NCBI GenBank assembly: GCA_016790285.1
Contig: JAEUPJ010000020.1
Coordinates: 62,001 to 126,000, forward strand
Direction of reading: 5' to 3'
DNA length: 64,000 bases
Source: Roseateles sp.
GTDB lineage: Bacteria; Pseudomonadota; Gammaproteobacteria; Burkholderiales; Burkholderiaceae_C
Position 1 is the stretch's first letter. Each line of letters begins with the position of its first letter. Made by a program: the position numbers and the translations under genes. Below, in pieces: positions 8,775 through 29,549 of this stretch. A model generated the notes under the pieces. That model worked only from the letters and a program-made list of their open reading frames with translations. It ran no database searches and was not told the DNA's origin.

Positions 8775-10101
<1,327 letters not shown>

Positions 10102-10136: not shown

Positions 10137-10227
<91 letters not shown>

Positions 10228-10240
10228 AGTAGTAAGCAAA

Positions 10241-10722: not shown

Positions 10723-10764
10723 TTGCACGGATAGTTTCCCAGTAATATGATGTGCGTCATACAT
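10723..10764 (+). promoter_or_regulatory. tetR promoter with overlapping operator
   Basis: TTGCAC (10723-10728) and TATGAT (10746-10751) form a -35/-10 pair with a 17-base spacer. The palindrome AATATGA-TGTGCG-TCATACA (10744 onward; core TATGA-N6-TCATA at 10746-10761) overlaps the -10. It is a variant of the operator seen at 11393, 14526, 16424 and 19069, so the TetR gene downstream is likely autorepressed. Confidence 0.65.
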
Positions 10765-10776
10765 TGGAAACCATCC

Positions 10777-11352
10777 ATGGCACGATTCGTCCAATCCCGC
10801 AAGGAAGCCTCCCACGAGAGGATCCTGCAAGCCGCAACCCGCGCGATCCGCCGTAGTGGATATGCCGGTGCCGGTGTCGCAGACATCATGCGCGAGGCAG
10901 GCCTCACGCATGGCGGCTTCTACGCGCATTTCGATTCGCGTGAGGCGATGCTGGCAGAGGCGGCGGACCGCGCAGGTGCCGAGACCGTCGGGACGCTTGA
11001 TGGGTTCGCGGCCGCAGTGCCTCGCGAGGACGCCTACCGGACGCTGCTGAAAACCTACCTGTCGTCGAAGCACAAGGAACTCGTGGAGACCGGATGTCCA
11101 GTCGCTGCCCTCGGCTCCGAGATGCCGCGGCAGGCGCCCGATGTGCGGCATGCGGCGACCCGACGCATCAAGGACATGATCGACCTCGTGGCGCGATACG
11201 CACCGGACGGCGGCACGGAGGCTGGTCGGCGCCGTGCGCTGACGACGACGGCCACGATGATCGGATCGCTGATCCTGAGCCGGGCGGTCGACGACCCGCA
11301 ACTCGCTGACGATGTACTGGCTGCAGCACTTGAGCACCTGACGGGCGAGTGA
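10777..11352 (+). CDS. TetR/AcrR-family repressor (likely local master regulator)
   Basis: A 191-residue TetR-family DNA-binding protein. The N-terminal helix-turn-helix covers about residues 12-55 (RILQAATRAIRRSGYAGAGV, then DIMREAGLTHGGFYAHFDSR). The C-terminal ligand domain includes KHKELVETGCPVAALGSEM, a pattern seen in TetR proteins that sit beside short-chain dehydrogenases. The ATG at 10777 (MARFVQSRKEAS) is preferred over the upstream in-frame ATG at 10747, which lies inside the operator. The operator overlaps its own -10, and the same palindrome precedes the next gene and three further promoters. I infer that this protein represses the cluster and releases DNA on binding a pathway compound. 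The ligand is unknown. Confidence 0.9.
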   Translation: MARFVQSRKEASHERILQAATRAIRRSGYAGAGVADIMREAGLTHGGFYAHFDSREAMLAEAADRAGAETVGTLDGFAAAVPREDAYRTLLKTYLSSKHKELVETGCPVAALGSEMPRQAPDVRHAATRRIKDMIDLVARYAPDGGTEAGRRRALTTTATMIGSLILSRAVDDPQLADDVLAAALEHLTGE

Positions 11353-11392
11353 TGTCCATCACTGGGGACACCTCGCCCTTTCTTTCGCCCCA

Positions 11393-11414
11393 AAATATGA
11401 CACTAGTCATATTT
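11393..11414. promoter_or_regulatory. Perfect palindromic operator upstream of the SDR-MFS operon
   Basis: AAATATGA-CACTAG-TCATATTT: an 8-base perfect inverted repeat, and since CACTAG contributes C..G the dyad extends to 9 bases per side. It lies 39 bases before the SDR start codon. It is the best match to the motif shared by five promoters in 10.7-19.1 kb. Confidence 0.75.
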
Positions 11415-11452
11415 ATTCATTATCCCGCTTGAACTTTCTCCAGGAGCCTTCC

Positions 11453-12160
11453 ATGAACATTCACGGATCCATTGCCCTCGTGACGGGTGCCAACCGCGGC
11501 CTGGGCGCTGCCTTCGCCCGTGTGTTGCTCGCGAACGGTGCAGCCAAGGTGTATGCCGCTGCGCGCGATCCTTCCAGCGTGAAGCAGGCCGGCGTGGTGC
11601 CGGTCCAACTCGACGTGACGAAGCCGGATCAGGTCGCCGCTTTGGCGCGCGATCTGCGAGACGTGACGCTGGTGGTGAACAACGCCGGCGTGTTCGAACC
11701 AGGCCCGCTGCTGGCGCCCCAGTCGGCGGATGCCCTGATGCGTCAGATGGAGGTCAACGCCTTGGGGCCCTTGCGAGTCGTGCAGGCCTTCGCACCGGTG
11801 CTCGCCGCGAATGGCGGCAGCGCCGTCATCAACATGCTTTCGGTGCTGAGTTGGCTGACCCTCGCCAACGTCAGTGGCACCTACAGCGCGTCCAAGGCGG
11901 CTGCCTGGGCGCTGAGCAACGGTCTTCGCCAGGAGCTGAAGGCGCAAGGGACCGAACTGCTGTCGGTGCATGCAGGTTTCATCGACACGGACATGGCCAG
12001 CGGCGTGCAGATGCCCAAGACCTCTCCGGACGACGTCGCGCGCATCGCACTCGAGGCGCTGCAAGCCGGGCAGAGCGAGGTTTTGGTCGATGACATCTCC
12101 CGCCAGGTGCGCCAGGGCTTCAGCGCCTCGCCGGCCATCTACCTCGGTACGGGCGCGTGA
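11453..12160 (+). CDS. Short-chain dehydrogenase/reductase
   Basis: A 235-residue classical SDR. The cofactor-binding glycine motif TGANRGLG is near the N-terminus, NNAG is near residue 77, and the active-site serine region is followed by Tyr-x-x-x-Lys as YSASK. It should oxidise or reduce an alcohol/carbonyl with NAD(P). The ATG at 11453 has a good CAGGAG site 7 bases upstream. One base separates its stop from the start of the MFS gene, so the two form an operon under the operator at 11393. The substrate cannot be told from sequence; the neighbourhood points to an aliphatic alcohol or ketone. Confidence 0.9.
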   Translation: MNIHGSIALVTGANRGLGAAFARVLLANGAAKVYAAARDPSSVKQAGVVPVQLDVTKPDQVAALARDLRDVTLVVNNAGVFEPGPLLAPQSADALMRQMEVNALGPLRVVQAFAPVLAANGGSAVINMLSVLSWLTLANVSGTYSASKAAAWALSNGLRQELKAQGTELLSVHAGFIDTDMASGVQMPKTSPDDVARIALEALQAGQSEVLVDDISRQVRQGFSASPAIYLGTGA

Positions 12161-12161
12161 A

Positions 12162-13565
12162 ATGCGTGCCGACGCTGCCCCAACGAACCCGGCAACGCCG
12201 GTAGGCCCGACGCCCTGGGGCGTCTTCGCCGTGTCGAGTGTTGCCGTCTTCCTGGTGTCGATGGATGGGACGCTGCTGTACGCCGCCTTCAATGCCGTAC
12301 GGGCCGGTTTCCCGGGCAGCACGGCAGCCGATCTTTCGTGGGTGCTGAACGCCTACACCGTCGTGTACGCCGCCTTGCTGGTGCCGGCCGGTCGGTTGGT
12401 GGACGCCCAGGGACGTCGGCGCGTGTTCCACATCGGGCTGGCCTTGTTCCTGGCGGCGTCAGCAGCCTGCGGGATCGCCCCGACGGCTGGCGCGCTGGTG
12501 GCCGCCCGCGTGTTGCAGGCGATCGGCGCTGCGCTGCTCACGCCATCGTCGTTGGCGTTGGTGCTGGGGGCCTTTCCGGCCGAACGGCGTGCGGTCGCCG
12601 TCAGTCTCTGGGGTGCCGTTGGTGGTCTTGCCGCCGCGCTCGGGCCCAGCCTCGGGTCCGCGGTGGTGGACATGCTCGGGTGGCGATGGGCGTTCTTCAT
12701 CAACGTGCCGATCGGTGCCGTGGCCTGGTGGCAGGGGCGGCAACGGCTGACCGAGTGGCGCACGAGCGACAAGGCGCCGCCCTTGGATGTTGTGGGCATC
12801 GCCATGCTGATGGCGGCGGTCGGAGCCTTGGCGTTCGGCATCGTGCAGAGTGAAACGCTCGGGTGGCAGTCTCCGGTCGTGGTCGGGTCGGTGGTGGGTG
12901 GGCTCGCGATGCTCGCCGCTTTCGTGGCCTGGGAGCGAAGCGTCCGCCACCCGGCGGTCGACCTGACGCTGTTTGCGGACAGCACGTACCGCTACGTCAA
13001 CGTCGCCACCTTCGTGTTCGGCGTGGCGTTCGCGATGATGTTCTTCGGCTACTTCTTCTTCCTGATGCAGGTGTGGCACTACAGCCTGCCGCGCGCCGGG
13101 TTGGCCATTGCACCGGGGCCGCTGCTGGTGGTGCCGGTGGCCATGGTCGCCGGTCGCTGGGCTGCACGTGTCGGGCATCGGCCGCTCCTCGTGCTGGGCT
13201 GTCTGCTGTACGCCCTGGGCGGCGTGTGGTTGCACCAACGGACCGGCACCGACGCTGACTATCTGGGCACCTGGTTGCCGGGTTTGGTGTTGACGGGTAT
13301 TGCCGTCGGCATGGTCCTCCCGTCCTTGGGTGGCGCAGCTGTCGCCAAGCTGCCACCCGCGCGCTTTGGCGTCGGCAGCGCCGTGAACCAGGCGGTTCGC
13401 CAAATGGGCGGCGTCATCGGTGTCGCGGTCACCGTGGCGCTGGTCGGCCATGCGAACCCACGCCTCGTGGACTTCCACGCCCTGTACCTCACCCACGTCG
13501 TGCTTGCGCTTGGCACCGGGCTGCTGTGCCTGCGTGTCGACACGCGACCGGCAGTGCGGCGCTGA
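12162..13565 (+). CDS. MFS transporter, DHA2 (14-helix) type
   Basis: A 467-residue inner-membrane protein with about 14 hydrophobic segments. It has the DHA2-type motif A region (GRLVDAQGRRRVF) and the antiporter-type motif C region (GPSLGSAVVDMLGWRWAFFI). Such proteins are proton-driven drug or solvent exporters. The start is the ATG at 12162, directly after the SDR stop; reading farther upstream would run through the SDR gene in another frame. It probably removes a toxic substrate or intermediate of the cluster. Confidence 0.9.
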   Translation: MRADAAPTNPATPVGPTPWGVFAVSSVAVFLVSMDGTLLYAAFNAVRAGFPGSTAADLSWVLNAYTVVYAALLVPAGRLVDAQGRRRVFHIGLALFLAASAACGIAPTAGALVAARVLQAIGAALLTPSSLALVLGAFPAERRAVAVSLWGAVGGLAAALGPSLGSAVVDMLGWRWAFFINVPIGAVAWWQGRQRLTEWRTSDKAPPLDVVGIAMLMAAVGALAFGIVQSETLGWQSPVVVGSVVGGLAMLAAFVAWERSVRHPAVDLTLFADSTYRYVNVATFVFGVAFAMMFFGYFFFLMQVWHYSLPRAGLAIAPGPLLVVPVAMVAGRWAARVGHRPLLVLGCLLYALGGVWLHQRTGTDADYLGTWLPGLVLTGIAVGMVLPSLGGAAVAKLPPARFGVGSAVNQAVRQMGGVIGVAVTVALVGHANPRLVDFHALYLTHVVLALGTGLLCLRVDTRPAVRR

Positions 13566-13619
13566 AGGCAGCGTCGCCGTCTACCTCTTCGTCACTACAG
13601 ACCCTTGCGTCTTTTCATC

Positions 13620-14441
13620 ATGAGCAGAACTTCTCCTTCGGCACCTCCTCGCGTGGCCCTCGTCACGGGCGCAAGCGCAGGGATCGGCCAAGCGACCGCC
13701 CTCGCGCTCGTGAAGGCCGGCTACCGCGTCTTCGGCACCTACCGCAAGTCGCCCCAGCGCAAGTCGCTCGGCATCGACTACCTGTACTGCGACGTGACCG
13801 ACGATGCGTCCGTGGCAGCCGCCGTCGATGAAGTGCTCAGGGTGTCGCATCGCCTGGATCTGCTCGTCAACAACGCGGGCATCGGTCTTGTCGCGGGCGC
13901 TGAGGAATCGTCCGTCGAGCAGGCCAAGGCGCTGTTCGATGTCAACCTCTTCGGCGCCATTCGCATGACGCAGGCCGTGCTGCCGGTGATGCGCCGCCAG
14001 AAGGCCGGGCGCATCGTCAACCTGAGCTCGATCCTCGGTGTCATTCCGTCCCCGTACTCGGCGTTGTACGCCTCGACCAAGCACGCGATGGAAGGGTATT
14101 TCGAATCCCTCGACCATGAGGTGCGTGCCTTTGGCGTGCGTGCCGTGCTGGTCGAGCCGGCGTACACGCGCACCGCCTTCGAGGGCAATGTGCTGCATGC
14201 CGACCGCAAGCTCGACGACTACCAGTCCGCGCGCTCGCGAGCCGAAGAGCATTTGCGCAAGGTGATGCAGGACGCCGACGCCGCCGAGACCGTCGCCGAC
14301 GTGGTGGTGCGCGCAGCACAAGACCCCAACCCGCAACTGCGATACACGGCGGGCAGCGTGGCCAAGCGCGTCAGCATGCTGCGCCGGTTCGTGCCTGCGA
14401 GCGCATTCGACAAGAGCCTGCGCAAGCAACTCGGCCTCTAG
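13620..14441 (+). CDS. Short-chain dehydrogenase/reductase
   Basis: A 273-residue classical SDR with TGASAGIGQATALAL for cofactor binding, NNAG near residue 83, and the catalytic YASTK. The C-terminus (SMLRRFVPASAFDKSLRKQ) resembles SDRs annotated simply as oxidoreductases acting on hydrophobic substrates. The ATG at 13620 is chosen over a TTG five codons upstream, where no family residues lie. It sits 54 bases after the MFS gene and has no operator of its own, so it likely belongs to the same transcript. It is not closely similar to the first SDR, so the two probably act on different substrates. Confidence 0.88.
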   Translation: MSRTSPSAPPRVALVTGASAGIGQATALALVKAGYRVFGTYRKSPQRKSLGIDYLYCDVTDDASVAAAVDEVLRVSHRLDLLVNNAGIGLVAGAEESSVEQAKALFDVNLFGAIRMTQAVLPVMRRQKAGRIVNLSSILGVIPSPYSALYASTKHAMEGYFESLDHEVRAFGVRAVLVEPAYTRTAFEGNVLHADRKLDDYQSARSRAEEHLRKVMQDADAAETVADVVVRAAQDPNPQLRYTAGSVAKRVSMLRRFVPASAFDKSLRKQLGL

Positions 14442-14468
14442 GCCTGTCCCTCTCACTCTGTCCCAGTT

Positions 14469-14498
14469 CTCAAGTCACGCCATGGCGTGCGACTTGAG
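14469..14498. terminator. Near-perfect hairpin after the second SDR
   Basis: CTCAAGTCACGCCAT pairs with ATGGCGTGCGACTTGAG apart from a two-base bulge, giving a long stable stem 27 bases after the SDR stop. There is no T-tract. It is plausibly a terminator or mRNA 3' stabiliser separating this operon from the hydrolase promoter. Confidence 0.5.
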
Positions 14499-14525
14499 TG
14501 TTGTCGTCCCTGGCCGATCGTCCAT

Positions 14526-14547
14526 AAATATGACGGCCAACATTATT
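14526..14547. promoter_or_regulatory. Operator-like site upstream of the alpha/beta hydrolase
   Basis: AAATATGA-CGGCCA-ACATTATT. The left half is identical to the consensus and the right half is degenerate. It ends 12 bases before the start codon and touches the ribosome binding site (TAGGAGA), so binding here should block the gene. Confidence 0.55.
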
Positions 14548-14558
14548 AGGAGATCGTC

Positions 14559-15548
14559 ATGCTTGGAAGCCATCCTGTGTCCGCCGCCACCAGCCATCCG
14601 GAGGCCGGCACGTCCACCCGTCGTCAGGCGCTTCTGACGGGCGCTGCCGTCATCGCCGGCGCCAGCCTGCTCGAAGCCGGTCGTGCGGAGGCGGCGGCCT
14701 TGTCGTCCGCCACGGCGGTAACGCAGTTCGTCGAAGTGGATGGCCGCAAGCTCGCCTACCGGTCGGTGGGGCAGGGCAAGCCGCTGGTGCTCTTCCATCG
14801 CTTCCGGGGTGTGCTGGGTCTGTGGGATCCCGCCTTCATCGATGCGCTCGCGGCAGAAGGCTTCCAGGTGATCACGTTCGACTACTCCGGCATCGGCCTG
14901 TCCACCGGCAAGCCCAGCTACAACCCCGCCACCATGGTCAAGGACGCCAAGGACCTGATCGATGCGCTGGGCCTCAAGGATGTGGCGATCGGCGGATGGT
15001 CGATCGGCGGCATCGTGGCGCAGATCTACCTGGCGATGTTCGGCGCCGGTGTAAGCCACGTTGTGCTGCTGGCCACGACCCCGCCGGGCAAGCTGGTCAA
15101 GGCAGGCGAGCAGCTCTTCTACGACGCTGCTGCCGTGCCGGGTATCGGGCTGGACAACTTCACCACCATCTTCTTCGAGCCCACTGACGAAGCCAGTCGT
15201 GCGGCGTCGAAGCGCTCATTCGACCGCATCATGTCCCAGAAGGTGGCGCGCAGCCCGGACGTCCCGGCGGACTGGGCGATCGCGCAGATCGGCAACACGC
15301 CGCGCAATCCGGTCTTCCCGGTCGAAGAAGTGCTGCACGTGCTGAAGACCACCAACGTGCCCATCCTGCACATCGGTGCAGACCACGACATCGTGTTCCC
15401 GATCGAGAACTGGTACGCCTTGAACGGGCAGCTGCCGACCACCCGCCTGATCACCTACCCCAAGACAGGTCACGGTCCGCAGCACCAGTTCCCTGAAGAG
15501 GCTGCGAAGCACATCGCCGGCTTCATCCGATCGACCCGCAAGGGCTGA
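14559..15548 (+). CDS. Exported alpha/beta hydrolase
   Basis: A 329-residue alpha/beta hydrolase. The nucleophile elbow is GWSIGG with Ser148; the acid is Asp275 or Asp277 (GADHDIVFP) and the base is His305 (KTGHGPQ). The N-terminus has a twin arginine followed by a hydrophobic stretch and an Ala-rich cleavage region (STRRQALLTGAAVIAGASLL, then AEAA), consistent with Tat export, so the mature enzyme begins near residue 47. It would hydrolyse an ester or similar bond in the periplasm. It has its own operator-like site and a strong ribosome binding site. The substrate is unknown. Its place beside FadL and a thiolase suggests a lipid or ester substrate. Confidence 0.85.
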   Translation: MLGSHPVSAATSHPEAGTSTRRQALLTGAAVIAGASLLEAGRAEAAALSSATAVTQFVEVDGRKLAYRSVGQGKPLVLFHRFRGVLGLWDPAFIDALAAEGFQVITFDYSGIGLSTGKPSYNPATMVKDAKDLIDALGLKDVAIGGWSIGGIVAQIYLAMFGAGVSHVVLLATTPPGKLVKAGEQLFYDAAAVPGIGLDNFTTIFFEPTDEASRAASKRSFDRIMSQKVARSPDVPADWAIAQIGNTPRNPVFPVEEVLHVLKTTNVPILHIGADHDIVFPIENWYALNGQLPTTRLITYPKTGHGPQHQFPEEAAKHIAGFIRSTRKG

Positions 15549-15778
15549 TCGAGAAGCACCTCCTCGCGCGCGTGACGCCGCGGGGAGGTTGTCGTTGCAC
15601 TTCAATGGGAAGCGCCATGAACACACATGAGGTCACGAGCCCGTCCAGCTATGCGCGGATGCTGATCGTCGCGAAGCGCAATTTCCAGCGCCAGCGAGAT
15701 GCGTTGAATCTCGCTGGTCTGCCCGGAAGTGAACCAGCCCCTGCGCAAGTTGGGCCGGTGGCTGCACAGCCGGGTGCG

Positions 15779-16318
15779 TCAGGCCTTGGCGGGCGGCAGA
15801 TCGAAGATCAGGCAAGTCGTCGTGGCGTGCGCGTACAGCTTGCCGTCAGGGCCAATGATGCGCGCCTCTGACGTGGCGACCTGCCGACCGCCGTGGATGA
15901 GTGTTCCCTCGGCGCGAACCATCGGCACCACATCGGTCAGCGCGCGCACCAGGTTCACCTTCAGCTCCAGCGTCGTGTAGCCCTTGCCCGCAGGCAGTGT
16001 GGAATGAATCGCGCAGCCGAGCGCGGAGTCGAGCATGGCTGCGAACCAGCCGCCATGCACGGTGCCCATGGGGTTGTAGTGGCGCTTGTTGGGGCGCCCC
16101 TGAAAGATCGCCTTGCCAGGCTCGACGCGGATCGGAATGAAGTCCAGGGTGCTGCCCATCGGCGGCTGCGGCAGCTGCCCTGCGGAGATGGCATCGAAGA
16201 TCTGCATGGCCGACATGCCGGCAACCTGGTCCGGCGTAGCAACGCCCGGCGCCGCGAGCGTGGCGCGAGCGGCCTGTTCTTCAGCGATCCATTGCGGAGT
16301 CAGGTCTTCTTGGGGCAT
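15779..16318 (-). CDS. PaaI-like hotdog-fold thioesterase
   Basis: A 179-residue protein whose second half is a hotdog-fold thioesterase domain (about residues 60-170). The family signature NPMGTVHGGWFAAMLDSALG carries the His-Gly-Gly turn and the acidic helix residue, followed by LELKVNLVRAL. Such enzymes hydrolyse acyl-CoA or aryl-CoA thioesters and free CoA from dead-end intermediates. The N-terminal 60 residues are helical and not otherwise recognised. It is divergent from the aldehyde dehydrogenase gene, and the shared intergenic region holds an operator palindrome at 16424, so both may be co-regulated. The 230 bases between its 3' end and the hydrolase stop hold no supported gene. Confidence 0.88.
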   Translation of the reverse strand: MPQEDLTPQWIAEEQAARATLAAPGVATPDQVAGMSAMQIFDAISAGQLPQPPMGSTLDFIPIRVEPGKAIFQGRPNKRHYNPMGTVHGGWFAAMLDSALGCAIHSTLPAGKGYTTLELKVNLVRALTDVVPMVRAEGTLIHGGRQVATSEARIIGPDGKLYAHATTTCLIFDLPPAKA

Positions 16319-16423
16319 GGGTCTTCTCCTGATGTGGCGGCGCTGGGCTCATCCGCCGAGGTTGTGATGTCGTCTTCGCGCACGGAACGCGGTGGGGTCG
16401 GCATCAAACTATTGGCGACATCA

Positions 16424-16445
16424 TAAGATGACTAGCGTCATTTTT
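16424..16445. promoter_or_regulatory. Operator between thioesterase and aldehyde dehydrogenase
   Basis: TAAGATGA-CTAGCG-TCATTTTT, with the perfect core GATGACTAGCGTCAT. It lies 106 bases before the minus-strand thioesterase start and 163 bases before the aldehyde dehydrogenase start. A candidate promoter for the latter (TTGATG at 16502, CATATT at 16526, spacer 18) lies further downstream. Confidence 0.6.
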
Positions 16446-16607
16446 GGCGTTGATCAACCCCGGCTGCAATTGCCCTCGTGCCTCAGTGGCCAAAATGGCT
16501 CTTGATGCCAATTGGCAGTGAGTGACATATTCTTGCGTTGACGGAAGGGCGTCCTGGGCTGCGGCCCTTGCAACTCCATCCGCCTTCGTCAACTCAAGGA
16601 ACACGTC

Positions 16608-18047
16608 ATGTCTTCTCCCGCCTACACCGACCTTTACCTTTGGATCAACGGACAAAAGCTGTCCGGAGGCGGCCGTGCGCACAGTGCGGTCATCAACCCG
16701 TTCGACGGCAGCACGCTGGGTCAGATGCCCCACGCGACTGCGGACGACCTGCAGGCGGCCCTGGCGTCGTCCGAGCAGGGCTTCAAGGCCTGGCGCGCCG
16801 TAACCGCTTGGCAGCGTGCCGCAGTGATCGAGCGCGCGGTGGCATGGCTGCGCGAGCGCAGCGCCCAGCTGGAAGAGCTGCTGACGCTGGAAGTGGGCAA
16901 GCCCCTGGCCGAGGCTCGCATGGAGTTGGGCCTCACGCTGGAGTCCATGACCTGGTGTGCCGAGGAGGCAAAACGCATCTACGGCCGCACGCTCGAGCCC
17001 CGCATCCCGCACGGCCGCATGGTCGTCTCGCGTGAGCCGGTGGGCCCTGTGGCCGCCTTTGCACCCTGGAACGTGCCCGCGCTGCTCACCGGCCGCAAGA
17101 TCGCCGCCGCATTGGCCGCTGGCTGCTCGATGGTCATCAAGCCGTCCGAAGAGACGCCTGCCACCTGCTTGATGATTGCCGAGGCGTTCGCGGCAGCGGG
17201 CCTGCCGTCAGGGGTCCTCAACGTGGTGCTTGGCGAGCCTGACTTCATCTCCCGTACCCTGCTGGCCTCGAAGGTCATCCGCAAGGTCTCGTTCACCGGG
17301 CCCGAGCCCGTCGGGCGGCAGTTGGCCAAGCTGGCCGCAGAGAACATCACGCCGATCACGATGGAGCTCGGCGGCCATGGGCCCGTCATCGTGTGCGACG
17401 ACGCCGACGTCGAAGCCGCCGCAGCAGCCTCCGTGCCGAACAAGTTCTTCAACGCAGGCGCGAGCTGCATCGCCCCGACCCGCTTCTACGTGCAGGATGC
17501 GGTGTACGACCGCTTCGTCGCCGCTTTCGTCGCCGGGGCCAAGGCCATCAAGCTGGGCAGCGGCTTCGACCCCGAGACGCGCATGGGCCCCCTGGCCAAT
17601 GCCCGGCGCCTGGTGGCGATGGAACGGCTCATCGGCGACGCGGTCGCCCGGGGCGCCAAGCTCGAGACGGGCGGCAAGCGCGTCGAAGGCGACGGATTCT
17701 TCTGGGAGCCGACCGTGCTCACCCACGTGCCCGAGGACGCCGACATCATGAACCACGAGCCCTTCGGCCCCGTCGCGACGATCTCCCGCTTCACCGAGCT
17801 CGATGACGCCATCGAGCTCGCCAATCGCCTGCCGTTCGGCCTCGGGGCCTACGCGTTCACGCAGTCGCTGTCCCGTGCGCACCAACTGGCAGACCGCATC
17901 GAAAGCGGCATGGTGGGCATCAACACCTACTACTTCGGCATGCCGGAAGGCCCGTTCGGCGGAGTCAAGCAGAGTGGCTATGGCAGCGAGAATGGCACCG
18001 AAGGCATCGATGCCTACTTGGTGACCAAGTTCGTTCACATCGTCTGA
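16608..18047 (+). CDS. NAD(P)-dependent aldehyde dehydrogenase
   Basis: A 479-residue member of the aldehyde dehydrogenase superfamily, closest in style to the succinate-semialdehyde dehydrogenase group. The catalytic cysteine is Cys287 (FNAGASCIAPTRFYV) and the general base is Glu253 (MELGGHGP). The cofactor region reads KPSEETPATC and SFTGPEPVGRQLAKLAA. It would oxidise an aldehyde to the acid, consistent with taking up the product of an upstream SDR. The ATG at 16608 follows AAGGAACACGTC. A TetR gene follows it almost directly. The exact aldehyde is unknown. Confidence 0.92.
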   Translation: MSSPAYTDLYLWINGQKLSGGGRAHSAVINPFDGSTLGQMPHATADDLQAALASSEQGFKAWRAVTAWQRAAVIERAVAWLRERSAQLEELLTLEVGKPLAEARMELGLTLESMTWCAEEAKRIYGRTLEPRIPHGRMVVSREPVGPVAAFAPWNVPALLTGRKIAAALAAGCSMVIKPSEETPATCLMIAEAFAAAGLPSGVLNVVLGEPDFISRTLLASKVIRKVSFTGPEPVGRQLAKLAAENITPITMELGGHGPVIVCDDADVEAAAAASVPNKFFNAGASCIAPTRFYVQDAVYDRFVAAFVAGAKAIKLGSGFDPETRMGPLANARRLVAMERLIGDAVARGAKLETGGKRVEGDGFFWEPTVLTHVPEDADIMNHEPFGPVATISRFTELDDAIELANRLPFGLGAYAFTQSLSRAHQLADRIESGMVGINTYYFGMPEGPFGGVKQSGYGSENGTEGIDAYLVTKFVHIV

Positions 18048-18112
18048 CGATGACCGGGGCGGCCGCCGCGAGGTGCGCTGCCCCGTTTGCCCCGCTTCTG
18101 GAGGGAACTGCA

Positions 18113-18700
18113 TTGGGATTGCGAGAGTCCAAGAAGGACAAGACCCGCCGGCAATTGCTGGACACGGCGCTCGACCTGTTCACGCGGCAGGGCTACGAGG
18201 AGACCACGATCGCCGAGATCGCCGCACAGGTGGAGGTCTCGCCTCGCACGCTCCTTCGCTACTTCCCAACCAAGGAAGACATCGTCGTCAGTTGGATCGA
18301 GGACAGCATGTCCAACTTCCTCACGGGTCTCGCAGATCGCCCCCCGGGTGAAACTGTTCAGCAGTCGCTGATCGCCTGCGCTCGCACCCTGCTGGCGACC
18401 TACGAAAGCCGCAAGGCGTTCTACCTCACGCTCGAACGCGTCATCGCTGCATCGCGGCCCATCGCCGATCGCAAGCAGGCCATGACCGCCAACTTGGCCG
18501 ATGAGGTGGCTGAAGAGATCCTTCGATCTCGTGGCGCGCGGGCACCGGACGTCCTGGCCTGCCATGTCTATCCTCAAGCGCTGTTCGCCGTCATTCGCGC
18601 GGTGATCACGCGTTGGGTGGCCGCTGGCGGGAAGCCCAGCCTGCAGGGCTTGTTTGATGAGGCCTTACGGCTGGTGGATTTCGAGCCCAAGCGTTCCTGA
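18113..18700 (+). CDS. Second TetR-family regulator
   Basis: A 195-residue TetR-family protein with the helix-turn-helix in residues 10-55 (RRQLLDTALDLFTRQGYEE, then TTIAEIAAQVEVSPRTLLRYF). The ligand domain has no recognisable subfamily mark. The TTG at 18113 is chosen because a GGAGGG ribosome binding site lies 7 bases upstream. An ATG at 18050, just after the aldehyde dehydrogenase stop, would add 21 residues of no family character. It has no operator-like site of its own and probably rides on the aldehyde dehydrogenase transcript. It is not closely similar to the first TetR protein, so it may sense another compound. Confidence 0.85.
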   Translation: MGLRESKKDKTRRQLLDTALDLFTRQGYEETTIAEIAAQVEVSPRTLLRYFPTKEDIVVSWIEDSMSNFLTGLADRPPGETVQQSLIACARTLLATYESRKAFYLTLERVIAASRPIADRKQAMTANLADEVAEEILRSRGARAPDVLACHVYPQALFAVIRAVITRWVAAGGKPSLQGLFDEALRLVDFEPKRS

Positions 18701-19068
18701 GCTTGACGCGCATCAAGGCTGTTCGACCGTCGTGGCAAGTCGCCGCCGAAAAGCAAAGCGCGGTCGTCAGCTTCCTCAAGCAAGTGGCCGCCCCATGTAT
18801 TCCAGGGACGAATCGATGGCCGCCGACCGCTTGTTTCACGTAGGGATCGCCGGCTTTGCATCGACACCAAAGACCTTTGCCGGTCGCTGTGACCGTCGCC
18901 TCCGGGCTCGGTGCGGTCTTCACCCATCGCCCGCCGAGCGGAACGCCACTCCCGGTAGAGCCGGCCAACTCAGCCATTCCATGCTCTGTCAGTGGGGCGT
19001 TGCGCCGATTGTTGAGCTTGCGCGAATGCTCTGTTCACACGGACTGTCGCTTTGAGAATCGACTTCAA
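18701..19068 (+). other. Gene-free stretch between tetR and the FadL operon
   Basis: Several open frames cross this region on both strands but none has a recognisable domain, a ribosome binding site or normal composition. Nothing like a transposase or RNA gene is evident. It may be decayed sequence or a long upstream region for the operon controlled at 19069. Confidence 0.45.
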
Positions 19069-19090
19069 AAATATGATTTATCACATATTT
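19069..19090. promoter_or_regulatory. Operator upstream of the DUF4148-FadL-thiolase operon
   Basis: AAATATGA-TTTATC-ACATATTT. The outer arms AAATATG/CATATTT form a perfect inverted repeat, and the left half equals the consensus. It lies 78 bases before the DUF4148-like start codon in an AT-rich patch that stands out from its surroundings. Confidence 0.65.
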
Positions 19091-19168
19091 GCGGTCGAGT
19101 GACCAAGGCAAGACGTGGCGCCAGCAAGCACCCGGCGCCACCCATACAGACCACAGCAGGAGAGAAAC

Positions 19169-19540
19169 ATGCATGCCTTCCCGACCGAGCGCGGTCTCAC
19201 GATCTTTGTTCAGCACACACATTGGATTCGTCATGCCGCAGCAGCACTGCTGGGTGTTGCCATTGCTTCGGTCCCGATGAAGGCGCCAGCGTCTCCGGCG
19301 GCAGAGCCTTCGGTGGCAACGGCAGAGAGCAAACCGCTCAGCCGTGCTGAGGTCATTGCGGATCTTCGTCTCTGGCGTCGTGCACGTGTGGATGTGTACG
19401 CCGACCTTGCACTCAGCTATCAGGTGCACGTGGCGGAGTATGAGAAGGCCCTTGCCGAGTACCGCAAGCTGCGTGCCGGCCCGGCGTATCAGGCCGAGGT
19501 CGAGGCCGTTCGGCGAGAGATGGATCAAGCAAGCCAGTGA
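19169..19540 (+). CDS. Small exported DUF4148-like protein
   Basis: A 123-residue protein with a hydrophobic export segment (about residues 21-37, IRHAAAALLGVAIASV) and a short mature part. The core PLSRAEVIADLRLWRRARVD is the pattern of the DUF4148 family, small periplasmic proteins common in Burkholderiales with no known function. The tail is helical and charged. The ATG at 19169 has a strong AGGAGAG site. It is the first gene after the operator at 19069 and is followed 100 bases later by the FadL channel, so it is probably co-expressed with it. The family call is moderate and the function unknown. Confidence 0.65.
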   Translation: MHAFPTERGLTIFVQHTHWIRHAAAALLGVAIASVPMKAPASPAAEPSVATAESKPLSRAEVIADLRLWRRARVDVYADLALSYQVHVAEYEKALAEYRKLRAGPAYQAEVEAVRREMDQASQ

Positions 19541-19640: not shown

Positions 19641-20966
19641 ATGAATTCGCGTCGGAGTTTCGAGTTGGCCCTGGTTGCGGCCTGTGCCACGTTGGCTTGT
19701 GCCGATGCCGCTCATGCGGCAGCGTTCCAGTTGAAGGAGCAGAGCGCGCTGGCCCAGGGGCGCGCTTTCGCGGGTTCCATCAGCGAACCCGGGGATGCGT
19801 CGGTGGTGGCCAACAACCCGGCGGCCATGACGCTGCTCAAGGGCCGTGTCTTCCAGGCCGACGCTTCAGTCATCGACTACTCGGTGAAGTTCTCCGGGGC
19901 CGGCAACGATGCGATCGGGCGCCCGCTGGGCGGAGGCAATGGCGGGGACGCCGGGGCCACGGCGGGCGTGCCCTCGCTCTATCTTCATCTGCCGGTGTCC
20001 GACCGTCTGCGTGTCGGCTTGTCAGTGACTGTGCCGTTCGGCTTCAAGACCTCCTATCAAGAGGGCTGGGCCGGTCGCTATGAGGGCATCAAGACGGAGC
20101 TCAAGGCCTATGACCTGGGAGCCGCTCTCGCCTACAAGGTCACCGACTCCCTGTCGCTGGGGGCCTCCGTGTTCGCGGAGCGCGCCGACGTGAAGCTGCG
20201 TGATGCGGTGGACTACGGGGCGATCCTTGCCGGTGCGCGGGTGGCGGGGTTCCTGCCGACGGGCGCCGACGGCGACGTGCGGATCCATGGCAAGCACACG
20301 GCGGCTGGCTTCACCTTGGGTGCCCTGTTCAAGCCGTCGGCGGATACCTCCATCGGTCTGGCCTACCGATCCAAGGTCGAGCACAAGATCGACTCGGTCG
20401 ATGTCAGGTTCTCCGTCCCTGCCGCGGCGAAGTCCGTCCTCGCGGTGGCGCGTCCGGGATGGTTCGTCGACACGACGGCCAGCGCAGAGATGGACCTCCC
20501 GTCGTCGTACACGCTGAGCGTCAGTCAGCGCGTCAATGCACGCTGGCGCGTGATGGCGGATTTCTCCCGCACGAAGTGGAGTCAGTTCCGGGACATCGAC
20601 CTCGACTTCGCCTCCAACCAGGCCACCCAGACCTTGGTTTTCGGCTACCGCGACACGTCCTTCTATTCGGTCGGCAGCGAGTACGAGGCCGGAGACGGAT
20701 GGACCTTGCGTGCAGGTCTTGGGTATGACCAATCGCCTGTCACCGACGCCGTGCGTGATGTCCGCGTGCCGGACACCAATCGGCGCTGGATCGCCCTGGG
20801 TGCCACCTGGCAGGCAAGTGAGCGGCTCAAGTACAGCCTGGCCTACACGCATCTCTTCCTCGGCGACCCTTCCGTGGACCTCCGCTCGGCGACCGGCAGC
20901 ACCTTGCGCGGCACGTACAAGCTGGGCAGCGATGTCCTTGCTGCCTCGGTGCAGTACAGCTTCTGA
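19641..20966 (+). CDS. FadL/OmpP1/TodX-family outer-membrane channel
   Basis: A 441-residue beta-barrel that lets hydrophobic molecules (long-chain fatty acids, alkanes, aromatics) cross the outer membrane. The signal peptide (about 1-27) ends at AHAAAF. The mature N-terminus AFQLKEQSALAQGRAFAG and the NNPAAM motif (VVANNPAAMTLL) are the family hatch signature. The C-terminus ends in Phe (VQYSF), the barrel insertion signal. The ATG at 19641 is preferred over an upstream frame extension because the signal peptide starts there. It lies 18 bases before the thiolase gene, giving an uptake-plus-degradation pair. The ligand cannot be deduced. Confidence 0.92.
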   Translation: MNSRRSFELALVAACATLACADAAHAAAFQLKEQSALAQGRAFAGSISEPGDASVVANNPAAMTLLKGRVFQADASVIDYSVKFSGAGNDAIGRPLGGGNGGDAGATAGVPSLYLHLPVSDRLRVGLSVTVPFGFKTSYQEGWAGRYEGIKTELKAYDLGAALAYKVTDSLSLGASVFAERADVKLRDAVDYGAILAGARVAGFLPTGADGDVRIHGKHTAAGFTLGALFKPSADTSIGLAYRSKVEHKIDSVDVRFSVPAAAKSVLAVARPGWFVDTTASAEMDLPSSYTLSVSQRVNARWRVMADFSRTKWSQFRDIDLDFASNQATQTLVFGYRDTSFYSVGSEYEAGDGWTLRAGLGYDQSPVTDAVRDVRVPDTNRRWIALGATWQASERLKYSLAYTHLFLGDPSVDLRSATGSTLRGTYKLGSDVLAASVQYSF

Positions 20967-20984: not shown

Positions 20985-22271
20985 ATGACCGTTGATCCCC
21001 GTCGCGACCTGTGGCTGGCCTCGGGCTTGCGCACGCCGTTTGCCAAGGTGGACGGCGCCCTGGCCGCACATGACGCGCTCGGCTTGTCCGTTCCGGTGGC
21101 GAAAGCCATGCTGGACCAGCAGGCGGTATCGGGTCTGCCTGACTTCGCCGTGTGGGGAACTGTCGTGCCCAACCTCACCTGGAGCAACCTGGCGCGCGAG
21201 GTGCTGATCGAAGCCGGGGCGCCGGCCGTCATCCCAGCGTTCTCGACGGGCATGGCCTGCTCGACGAGCATGACAGGCGCACTGCAGGCCGCCAGCATGA
21301 TCGACGGCCGAAGCCGTCACCTGGCCTTGGTGGGTGGGGCCGAAAGCATGAGCCGCATTCAGCTGGGCCTTGGGCAGAACCTGTCGGACTGGCTGCGCGG
21401 GTTCCAGCGACAGCGCACGTGGGGTCAGAAGCTCGCGCATGCGCTGGCATTGAAGCGGCGTGATGTCGCGTTGTACCTGCCGGCGATTCGCAACCGCACC
21501 ACCGGGCTCAGCATGGGCGAGCACACCGAGATCACGGCCAAGGCCTGGTCCATTGCGCGTGAAGACCAGGATCGGGTGGCGTTGGAGAGCCATCAGAGAG
21601 CGGTCTCTGCCTGGGAGAAGGGGTTCTTCGACAGTCTGGTGATTCCGGCCGGCAAGGTCACGCGCGACAGCGTTCCCCGACCGGATACCTCGTTGGCGAA
21701 ACTCGCGAAGCTGTCGCCAGCGTTCGACCCATCCTCTGGCGCGGGGACGCTCACGGCGGGCAACTCCTCACCGCTGACTGACGGTGCCGCGGGACTCTGG
21801 GTGGGCGATACCGCGGGCATGCAGCGCCTGGACTCGTCACTTCCTCGGGTGCGGCTGGTCGACTGGGAATTGACGGCCGTGGACTTTCGGACAGAAGGCC
21901 TGTTGATGGCGCCCGCCTATGGCGTTCCTCGGCTGCTGGCTCGCCACGGGTTGCGCTTGCCCGATATCGCGCTGTGGGAAATCCACGAAGCCTTTGCTGC
22001 CCAGTTGCTCTTTCACATCAGGGCTCTGGAAGACGCCAACTTCCTGCGTGAGAAGGTGGGCATCACCGCACCGCTCGGTACCTTCCCTCGCCAGTCCGTG
22101 AACCCCAATGGCGGCAGCACCGCGATTGGCCATCCGTTTGGCGCAACAGGAGCGCGCCTGTTGAGTCAAATCGTCAAGGAGCTAGCCGCCATGCCGCGCG
22201 GTAGCTACGGCGTCGCCAGTATCTGCGCGGACGGCGGGCAAGGCAGCGTGGCCCTGCTTCAAGCCGCGTGA
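20985..22271 (+). CDS. Acetyl-CoA acyltransferase (thiolase, FadI-like)
   Basis: A 428-residue thiolase that cleaves 3-ketoacyl-CoA to acetyl-CoA and a shortened acyl-CoA. The nucleophile is Cys92 (STGMACSTSMTGAL), the base is His334 (WEIHEAFAAQ), and the second cysteine is Cys414 (SICADGGQG). The NPNGGSTAIGHPFGATGAR loop is intact. It resembles the anaerobic-type FadI branch more than short-chain AtoB. No matching hydratase/dehydrogenase subunit or acyl-CoA synthetase is in the window, so the rest of beta-oxidation must come from elsewhere. It directly follows the FadL gene. Confidence 0.92.
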   Translation: MTVDPRRDLWLASGLRTPFAKVDGALAAHDALGLSVPVAKAMLDQQAVSGLPDFAVWGTVVPNLTWSNLAREVLIEAGAPAVIPAFSTGMACSTSMTGALQAASMIDGRSRHLALVGGAESMSRIQLGLGQNLSDWLRGFQRQRTWGQKLAHALALKRRDVALYLPAIRNRTTGLSMGEHTEITAKAWSIAREDQDRVALESHQRAVSAWEKGFFDSLVIPAGKVTRDSVPRPDTSLAKLAKLSPAFDPSSGAGTLTAGNSSPLTDGAAGLWVGDTAGMQRLDSSLPRVRLVDWELTAVDFRTEGLLMAPAYGVPRLLARHGLRLPDIALWEIHEAFAAQLLFHIRALEDANFLREKVGITAPLGTFPRQSVNPNGGSTAIGHPFGATGARLLSQIVKELAAMPRGSYGVASICADGGQGSVALLQAA

Positions 22272-28715: not shown

Positions 28716-29549
28716 TCAGCCCGGTGTCGGCAGCTTGCCGGCGCGCATCGCAGCGATGACGCCACCGTCGATCAGCAGGTCGCTGCCGGTGATGAAGCCG
28801 GCATCCGGCCCGAGCAGGAAGGACGCGGCCGTGGCGATCTCATCCGGCGGCGCCATGCGCTTGCTGGGCGATGCCTCGACCATGGCCTGATAGATGTGGC
28901 CGATCTCGGATTCGAGTTCATGGCGAGCGAGCGGCGTGACGATGATGCCGGGGCTGATGCAGTTGACCCGGGCGCCTCGCGCGCCCCAGGTCATGGCCGA
29001 GGCCTGGACGCGCAGGATGTTGGCGCGCTTGGACAGCATGTACGCGACCAGCGTGTTCGGAATCTTGTCGGCCTGCAGCATGGGCAGCTTCAGCAGCTCC
29101 TCTGTCGGCGTGTGGGCCAGGGCCTGGTCTTGTTCCGGCGGCAGGGCCGGCATCATGTGGCCGGCCATGCTCGAGATCAGCAGACCCGAGCCGCCCGGGG
29201 CGATGACGCGCTCGAATTCGTCGAACACCACGGCGGAGCCATAGAGGTCCACGGCGAGGATCCGATCGACCGGGGCCATGTTGGGAGAAACGCCCGCGGT
29301 GTTCACGACCTGGACGACGGCGCCGAGGCTGGCGGCGTGGGCCGCCAGCTTGGCGACCGAGGCCCGGTCGGACACGTCGACCAGCTGGGTCTCGACGGTG
29401 TAGCTCGCACCGCGCAGATCCTGGGCGGCGGCCTGCAGCGTCTTCTCGCTGTAGTCGGCCAGCAGCACGGTCTTGCCGACGCCCTGGCGGCGTGCGATGG
29501 CAATGCCGATGCCGCCGGCGCCGATGATGACGATCACGTCCTTCTTCAT
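28716..29549 (-). CDS. SDR-family oxidoreductase (paralogue A)
   Basis: A 277-residue SDR with an unusual glycine motif, IGAGGIGIAIARR, in place of TGxxxGxG, and NTAG in place of NNAG. The catalytic residues are AYMLSKRAN, with Tyr and Lys present. It ends in GSDLLIDGGVIAAM, the C-terminal SDR signature. It shares most of its motifs with the SDR at 31033, on the other side of the AraC gene (INCISPGII / NTISPGII, and APPDEI / GTPDEV equivalents), so the two are paralogues. It lies 113 bases upstream of the MFS gene and 95 bases downstream of the AraC gene, on the same strand. Substrate unknown. Confidence 0.88.
   Translation of the reverse strand: MKKDVIVIIGAGGIGIAIARRQGVGKTVLLADYSEKTLQAAAQDLRGASYTVETQLVDVSDRASVAKLAAHAASLGAVVQVVNTAGVSPNMAPVDRILAVDLYGSAVVFDEFERVIAPGGSGLLISSMAGHMMPALPPEQDQALAHTPTEELLKLPMLQADKIPNTLVAYMLSKRANILRVQASAMTWGARGARVNCISPGIIVTPLARHELESEIGHIYQAMVEASPSKRMAPPDEIATAASFLLGPDAGFITGSDLLIDGGVIAAMRAGKLPTPG

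Follow-up and report, generated by a model that had tools for sequence, protein, structure and literature searches.

Five AT-rich dyads lie in front of neighbouring genes in a 64,000-nucleotide stretch of Roseateles sp. DNA (the window; contig JAEUPJ010000020.1, positions 62,001 to 126,000), and they raise the question of whether one regulator reads them all and which genes it would control. A sequence-only reading had proposed a single palindromic operator and a compact regulon under the TetR-type protein encoded from position 10777, here named TetR1. In the current study, sequence comparison made TetR1 very likely to be the reader of this operator. A probability of about 0.72 was assigned to the reading that TetR1 is the autorepressor of a local regulon, which would include an operon for two short-chain dehydrogenase-type (SDR) enzymes and a major facilitator superfamily (MFS) pump, SDR1-MFS-SDR2, together with three units behind weaker sites. 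All five dyads were found at the positions claimed. They are listed with their weight-matrix scores and the number of 3000 dinucleotide shuffles of the respective intergenic segment that reached the observed maximum.

Operator 1, 10741..10766 (core 10746-10761), + strand: over the -10-like TATGAT of tetR1 and in-frame upstream ATGs; score 28.5, shuffles 0/3000
Operator 2, 11391..11416 (core 11396-11411), + strand: upstream of SDR1-MFS-SDR2; score 27.9, shuffles 0/3000
Operator 3, 14524..14549 (core 14529-14544), + strand: upstream of an alpha/beta hydrolase gene; score 19.0, shuffles 1/3000; not confirmed from relatives
Operator 4, 16422..16447 (core 16427-16442), strand undefined: between a thioesterase gene and an aldehyde dehydrogenase (ALDH) gene; score 14.1, shuffles 1/3000
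Operator 5, 19067..19092 (core 19072-19087), + strand: upstream of a small open reading frame (ORF), FadL and thiolase; score 12.0, shuffles 2/3000; the weakest, not confirmed from relatives

When the window was searched for ATATGA-N6-TCATAT with up to three mismatches, exactly five matches were obtained, at 10745 (one mismatch), 11395 (none), 14528 (three), 16426 (two) and 19071 (one). This in-window test was only suggestive, since shuffles gave 2.02 matches on average and 2 of 100 reached five. The half-sites originally proposed held as dyads, not in their extent: the core is better described as TATGAY-N4-RTCATA (ATGAY and RTCAT around a four-base middle), longer than claimed, and the matrix sites give the full consensus AAATATGAY-N4-RTCATATTT. 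The matrix was built from 79 sites, all in other genomes, and ranked the five operators as the top five positions of the window, the sixth scoring 4.9. Control DNA of 1.50 Mb (loci L087-L166) had 0, 0, 0, 2 and 3 positions at or above the scores of sites 1 to 5, and dinucleotide shuffles limited to 66 bp around each site reached them in 0, 0, 1, 5 and 11 of 3000 cases. The view that five such dyads in promoters are unlikely by chance is thus weakly served by the plain window test, and is supported by the matrix, the control DNA and the segment shuffles. Sites 1 and 2 are secure.

The link between operator and regulator was examined in relatives of TetR1, whose own features were as follows.

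TetR1, 10777..11352, + strand: regulator with TetR_N and TetR_C_13 domains (Pfam); found together with the operator at 67 of 68 places in the host family

The helix-turn-helix domain of TetR1 was detected (PF00440, 44.8 bits against a cutoff of 24), the C-terminal part matched TetR_C_13 (30 against 27 bits) and, marginally, TetR_C_13_2 (27.3 against 27), and the scores against NCBIfam equivalogs were all far below cutoff. In a sample of 200 genomes from the host family, 56, counting the organism's own, had homologs (E <=1e-30). Among the 68 TetR1 places in other genomes, 41 (in 40 neighbourhoods) formed the building set and the remaining 27 were held out. In the building set, a core match with at most two mismatches was present within 300 bases upstream at 41 of 41 places (79 sites in all), where about 0.2 site would be expected from genome-wide density. 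A second site lay on the other side in 37 of 40 loci, mostly upstream of SDR1, SDR2 or an MDR-type oxidoreductase. The held-out places, judged by matrix score and not, as in the building set, by core mismatches, carried an upstream site scoring at least 12 in 26 of 27 cases (25 of 26 independent ones, because locus L297 duplicates the sites of L045), and a downstream site as well in 19 of 27. Most of the sampled neighbourhoods (34 of 40) had two sites and the maximum was four (score about 12 or more), against five in the window.

Outside the host family, 12 of 32 plasmid records were fetched, including Agrobacterium, Rhizobium, Azospirillum, Aquabacterium, Phyllobacterium, a Klebsiella plasmid and Deinococcus. 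A position scoring at least 24 lay near the TetR1 homolog in 10 of the 12 and one scoring at least 13.6 in 11 of the 12 (13.6 in L266), down to 36% identity; one record, L259, repeats the sites of L045. The recognition-helix residues T44, H45, G46, F48, Y49, H51 and F52 were identical in 39 of 39 TetR1 homologs called as genes, these counts leaving out two of the 41 building homologs (L048 and L050) that were not called. Gene calls in loci lacking annotation came from a codon-usage heuristic, and the terms coding and intergenic are approximate there. Several points weigh against the pairing: the relatives' sites were collected with a consensus suggested by the window's own sites, no site was found near the TetR1 homologs of L268 (plasmid, 35% identity) and L296 (held out, 37%), and position 39 of the window's TetR1 is Arg, against Lys in 39 of 39 homologs.

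Another explanation would be that the dyads are no more than AT-rich promoters of palindromic appearance: each strand of the operator has a -10-like hexamer, and in the plain window test five matches were reached by 2 of 100 shuffles. The site is, however, conserved with one TetR subfamily (26 of 27 held-out places) and across phyla, which makes this explanation highly improbable; for sites 1 and 2 it was already unlikely. Comparison between genomes thus establishes the predicted operator and its predicted pairing with TetR1.

Some further arrangements were seen among TetR1 relatives. A more distant subgroup (L287, L289, L290, L294 and L295; 39-43% identity) carries a pair of operators ahead of tetR, spaced 25 bases apart. 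In the Klebsiella plasmid from water (L262 5001-5408), a TetR1 homolog matched over 136 residues only is preceded by an operator scoring 34.7 and followed by amidohydrolase and amidase genes. In the Agrobacterium plasmid, a third TetR1-type site (L258 3559-3584, score 19.8) coincides with the annotated start of a methyl-accepting chemotaxis gene, which hints that the switch might extend to chemotaxis.

Site 1 had been described as overlapping the -10 region of tetR1, and this agrees with the layout found: it covers a -10-like TATGAT, with TTGCAC (three of six consensus positions) 17 bases upstream. A scan for the sigma-70 consensus gave no promoter at threshold, where shuffles average 0.7. In relatives, the best upstream offset for a TTGACA-like hexamer was also 17 bases before TATGAY at tetR-proximal sites, with at least four matches in 9 of 41. 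Site 1 contains in-frame ATGs, which give alternative tetR1 starts at 10747 and 10750. In many close homologs (many of L042-L066; L258 and L261) the tetR start codon falls within the operator and directly follows TATGAT, an arrangement that would fit a leaderless tetR mRNA.

The distribution of the motif was then followed through the organism's own 5.88 Mb genome. A model search, using 78 of the 79 sites (L047:7390 omitted), recovered sites 1 and 2 and no others, with 150 of 1541 candidates scored in its first look; pattern search with matrix scoring was used for this reason. The pattern ATATGA-N6-TCATAT with up to two mismatches was found at 11 places, four of them in the window (reversed-pattern control, 3), and the core TATGAY-N4-RTCATA with up to two mismatches at 43 places (reversed control, 20). 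The five sites are the only two places among these 43 without mismatch and three of the forty-one with two mismatches, and all five are intergenic and upstream of a gene. The best of the other 38 were coding places scoring 12.9 and 10.6, and a place scoring 8.9 where no adjoining gene was called; none of the other intergenic places upstream of a gene among the 43 candidates scored above 2.2. The motif therefore does not recur at the same density elsewhere in the genome, and because no other intergenic place before a gene exceeds 2.2 among the 43 candidates the predicted regulon looks confined to one locus.

The genes at the five sites, with the second TetR gene among them, are as follows.

SDR1, 11453..12160, + strand: short-chain dehydrogenase; NCBIfam NF006119 above cutoff; recurrent partner of TetR1
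MFS pump, 12162..13565, + strand: DHA2/EmrB type; TIGR00711 above cutoff; order TetR-SDR-MFS in relatives
SDR2, 13620..14441, + strand: PRK06179-type oxidoreductase, above cutoff
Hydrolase, 14559..15548, + strand: alpha/beta hydrolase, Abhydrolase_1; twin-Arg-like leader STRRQALL, read by eye
Thioesterase, 15779..16318, - strand: PaaI-type hotdog thioesterase; TIGR00369 above cutoff; relatives in TetR1 clusters L046, L258, L264 and L265
ALDH, 16608..18047, + strand: SSADH-like aldehyde dehydrogenase, Aldedh; 74% identical to an Asticcacaulis ALDH adjoining a TetR2 homolog
TetR2, 18119..18700, + strand: second TetR, in line with ALDH; start uncertain; unlikely reader of the five sites
Small ORF, 19169..19540, + strand: weak DUF4148 similarity (E 0.001), below cutoff
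FadL, 19641..20966, + strand: FadL/TodX-type outer-membrane transporter, Toluene_X
Thiolase, 20985..22271, + strand: TIGR01930 above cutoff; best model PRK09268, below its cutoff

Two of the units differed in composition from what the sequence-only reading had described. The SDR and MFS genes of the second unit were as stated, and the operon is SDR-MFS-SDR; in the fifth unit FadL and thiolase were as stated, and the small ORF at 19169-19540 precedes them.

Relatives support these targets to different degrees. Frequent orders are TetR-operator-SDR1-MFS (or a MATE-like pump in place of MFS) and TetR-operator-SDR2; in the SDR2 cluster of 12, the members from other loci (11 of 11) lie directly behind an operator, and SDR2 of the window is third in its operon. 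PaaI thioesterases recur in TetR1 clusters (66% identical in L046, 60% in the Agrobacterium plasmid), the Aquabacterium plasmid has the order TetR-operator-MFS-thioesterase (65% identical), and in Deinococcus the operator lies between a thioesterase gene (49% identical) and tetR. The thioesterase side of site 4 gains support from this recurrence. Site 3, site 5 and the ALDH and FadL-thiolase targets are predicted from motif score and position. Close homologs of these genes were rare, own genome included: ALDH in 1 of 250 genomes (E limit 1e-160), TetR2 in 1 of 250 (1e-30), FadL in 7 of 250 (1e-60; the other six 33-38% identical), thiolase in 5 of 399 (1e-110) and the hydrolase in 3 of 250 (1e-40).

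The loci of thiolase relatives (80 named and 4 family loci, also used as control DNA) were considered as a footprint for site 5. With one mismatch allowed, which is too strict for a site like site 5, one match was found, 5.6 kb beyond the thiolase (L119). Rescoring by the matrix gave a position of at least 12 within 3 kb upstream in only 2 of 84 (L093, 18.8; L111, 15.6), and the footprint was rejected on this ground; the L130 position (11.8) lies between two other ORFs. A position scoring 18.1 near a FadL homolog (L246) was also set aside, as it lies at the junction of two other genes. In L093, an Afipia metagenome-assembled genome, the 18.8 position (8905-8930) is flanked by a LysR-type gene and an acetyltransferase-like ORF that runs towards the thiolase (read by eye), possibly an independent case of a thiolase under this operator.

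A number of these results weigh against the wider regulon. Sites 3 to 5 are asymmetric and weaker, with two core mismatches each, and a coding place in the genome (12.9) outranks site 5 (12.0). Many genomes of the family (146 of 250) have thioesterase homologs, and 29 thioesterase loci besides the window, out of more than 146 places, had no site scoring at least 10 within 1.5 kb. No site was found upstream of the FadL gene in six loci or of the hydrolase gene in two, the thiolase loci mostly had none, and the rarity of close homologs of ALDH, TetR2, FadL, thiolase and hydrolase means that a footprint can hardly confirm their sites. These findings would agree with TetR1 controlling only itself and SDR1-MFS-SDR2, perhaps with the thioesterase, sites 3 and 5 being decayed or chance AT-rich promoter sequences, and so would the perfect core match at sites 1 and 2 only, the same two that the genome model search returned. 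Against such a narrow regulon, shuffled segments reached the scores of sites 3 to 5 in only 1, 1 and 2 of 3000 cases, all three sites stand upstream of genes no more than about 8 kb from tetR1, and no comparable intergenic place before a gene was present among the 43 genome candidates; it is therefore considered unlikely. The proposal of one operator and a compact regulon under TetR1 withstood the held-out, genome-density and TetR2-helix comparisons, with sites 3 and 5 and the ALDH side of site 4 as predicted members.

TetR2 was the other regulator to be considered, above all for sites 4 and 5, which are the weakest of the five; its gene is in line with ALDH and its homolog adjoins an ALDH gene in Asticcacaulis. 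TetR2 differs from TetR1 at six of the seven recognition-helix residues. The Asticcacaulis plasmid (L256) has SDR2-hydrolase (58% and 66% identical) and SDR3-TetR2-ALDH (72%, 54% and 74%), and on it no TetR1 match and no position scoring at least 10 were found; the highest, 9.8, is over the start of the hydrolase gene, 6 kb away. Beside that homolog there is a different dyad, CAAATGTCA-N5-TGACATTTG (L256 19675-19697), and a relative of its core with two mismatches occurs upstream of ALDH in the window, at 16512-16528. This relative is weak, as 9 matches with up to three mismatches were found where 10.6 were expected; it is a possible separate TetR2 operator. Reading of sites 4 and 5 by TetR2 or another regulator thus appears quite improbable, more so than the narrow regulon. 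TetR1, whose held-out homologs carry the site at 26 of 27 places, is preferred as the regulator, as the sequence-only reading had it, and is predicted to bind these sites.

The cluster starts just after serS and a tRNA-Ser gene (window 10140-10228 onward, read by eye), and a search of 19 other genomes of the genus gave no close thiolase homolog. The cluster may be an island. The end of the tRNA-Ser gene was considered as an attachment repeat and rejected, no second copy being present within the window. A further SDR gene at 28716-29549 is 72% identical to the SDR adjoining TetR2 in Asticcacaulis, and the region at 22-32 kb may share its origin with the regulon.

For the control of this locus we infer the following model. 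A TetR1 dimer would bind the palindrome AAATATGAY-N4-RTCATATTT, which covers the -10 hexamer TATGAT of its own gene, so that bound TetR1 would block RNA polymerase. At site 2 it would block the SDR1-MFS-SDR2 operon, and at the three weaker sites the hydrolase gene, the thioesterase/ALDH pair and the ORF-FadL-thiolase unit. Release of TetR1 would need an inducer, for which a reactive carbonyl, a quinone or another electrophilic lipophile is most likely, and which would act either as a ligand or on Cys107, the only cysteine of TetR1. The weaker sites would open first, followed by efflux, reduction and hydrolysis, and FadL, ALDH, thioesterase and thiolase would add uptake and breakdown.

Cys107 was present in all of the 39 called homologs, and the plasmid-borne homologs had it as well (8 of 8). 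Genes recurring beside the relatives' tetR genes encode a thioesterase, an MFS pump, SDR proteins, an NADP-dependent oxidoreductase, an alkene reductase, a flavodoxin-family protein, hydrolases and pumps; some names in relatives (MDR-type oxidoreductase, MATE pump) were read by eye. An invariant cysteine that aligns with one in NemR, together with reductase, pump and hydrolase neighbours, suggests a response to carbonyls or electrophiles. The GC motif near Cys107 is shared with other TetR proteins (2fd5, 3qbm), which counts against cysteine sensing; the motif may be structural, and since other TetR proteins share it a plain ligand pocket is about equally likely.

Among known systems, E. coli NemR (nemR-nemA-gloA) is similar, as a TetR protein that represses its own gene from an operator in that gene's promoter and is followed by a reductase gene. 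TetR1 Cys107 aligns with Cys106, the redox residue of NemR, and relatives of TetR1 have alkene reductase genes. The two are unlike in that orthology did not hold (22% identity over 136 positions, with no NemR model among the NCBIfam matches of TetR1), and the window cluster has more operator copies; nemA and gloA families were not found among the genes scanned at 10.7-22.3 kb, the alkene reductase occurring only in relatives. Bacillus LmrA/YxaF (QdoR) share the TetR_C_13_2 domain, just above cutoff in TetR1; they control a pump and enzyme genes through an operator unrelated to that of the window. The closest solved structure to TetR1 by sequence is PDB 2fd5 (E 2.3e-20), presumably P. aeruginosa PA3133, which has the same GCP motif; Rv0078 was matched weakly.

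Pantoea AltR resembles TetR1 in layout: it is an autorepressor with an inverted repeat over its predicted -10, further imperfect copies in its own cluster and a decisive conserved Cys100 (PMC13178969). The AltR operator is CAATCTAC-N6-GTAGATTG instead of AAATATGAY-N4-RTCATATTT and its inducers are thiosulfinates (PMC13178969). DitR of Stenotrophomonas (DitR-mfsBC) is likewise a TetR repressor of MFS genes, relieved by cysteine oxidation; unlike TetR1, it needs Cys92 and Cys127 and has different boxes, and the portion of the report consulted mentions no SDR or hydrolase (PMC9342713). PA3973 was rejected as a counterpart, having another motif (PMC9736018). No description of this operator or regulator was found in the searches made of the open-access PMC literature, which fits the earlier expectation that the regulon is probably undescribed. 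A local TetR regulon with an autoregulatory palindrome is already known as a kind; that of the window is a well-supported case of moderately unusual size and content.

More tentatively, and with clearly less than even odds, TetR1 and its operator might represent an unnamed, widespread pair (Burkholderiales, Rhizobiales, Azospirillum, Deinococcus) that senses electrophiles through the invariant cysteine and governs an exchangeable cassette of reductase, pump, hydrolase and PaaI genes, the unrelated genes for ALDH, FadL-thiolase and the hydrolase having gained the operator here after moving in. If this is true, a switch for efflux and reduction has come to drive the uptake and degradation of the same compound as well. 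In plasmid records this repressor class carries no annotation more specific than TetR/AcrR family; the comparison provides it with a predicted operator, predicted targets and held-out support in many genera, and binding by the TetR1 class thereby becomes directly testable. The five-site version in the window would show how newly arrived catabolic genes come under an existing stress switch.

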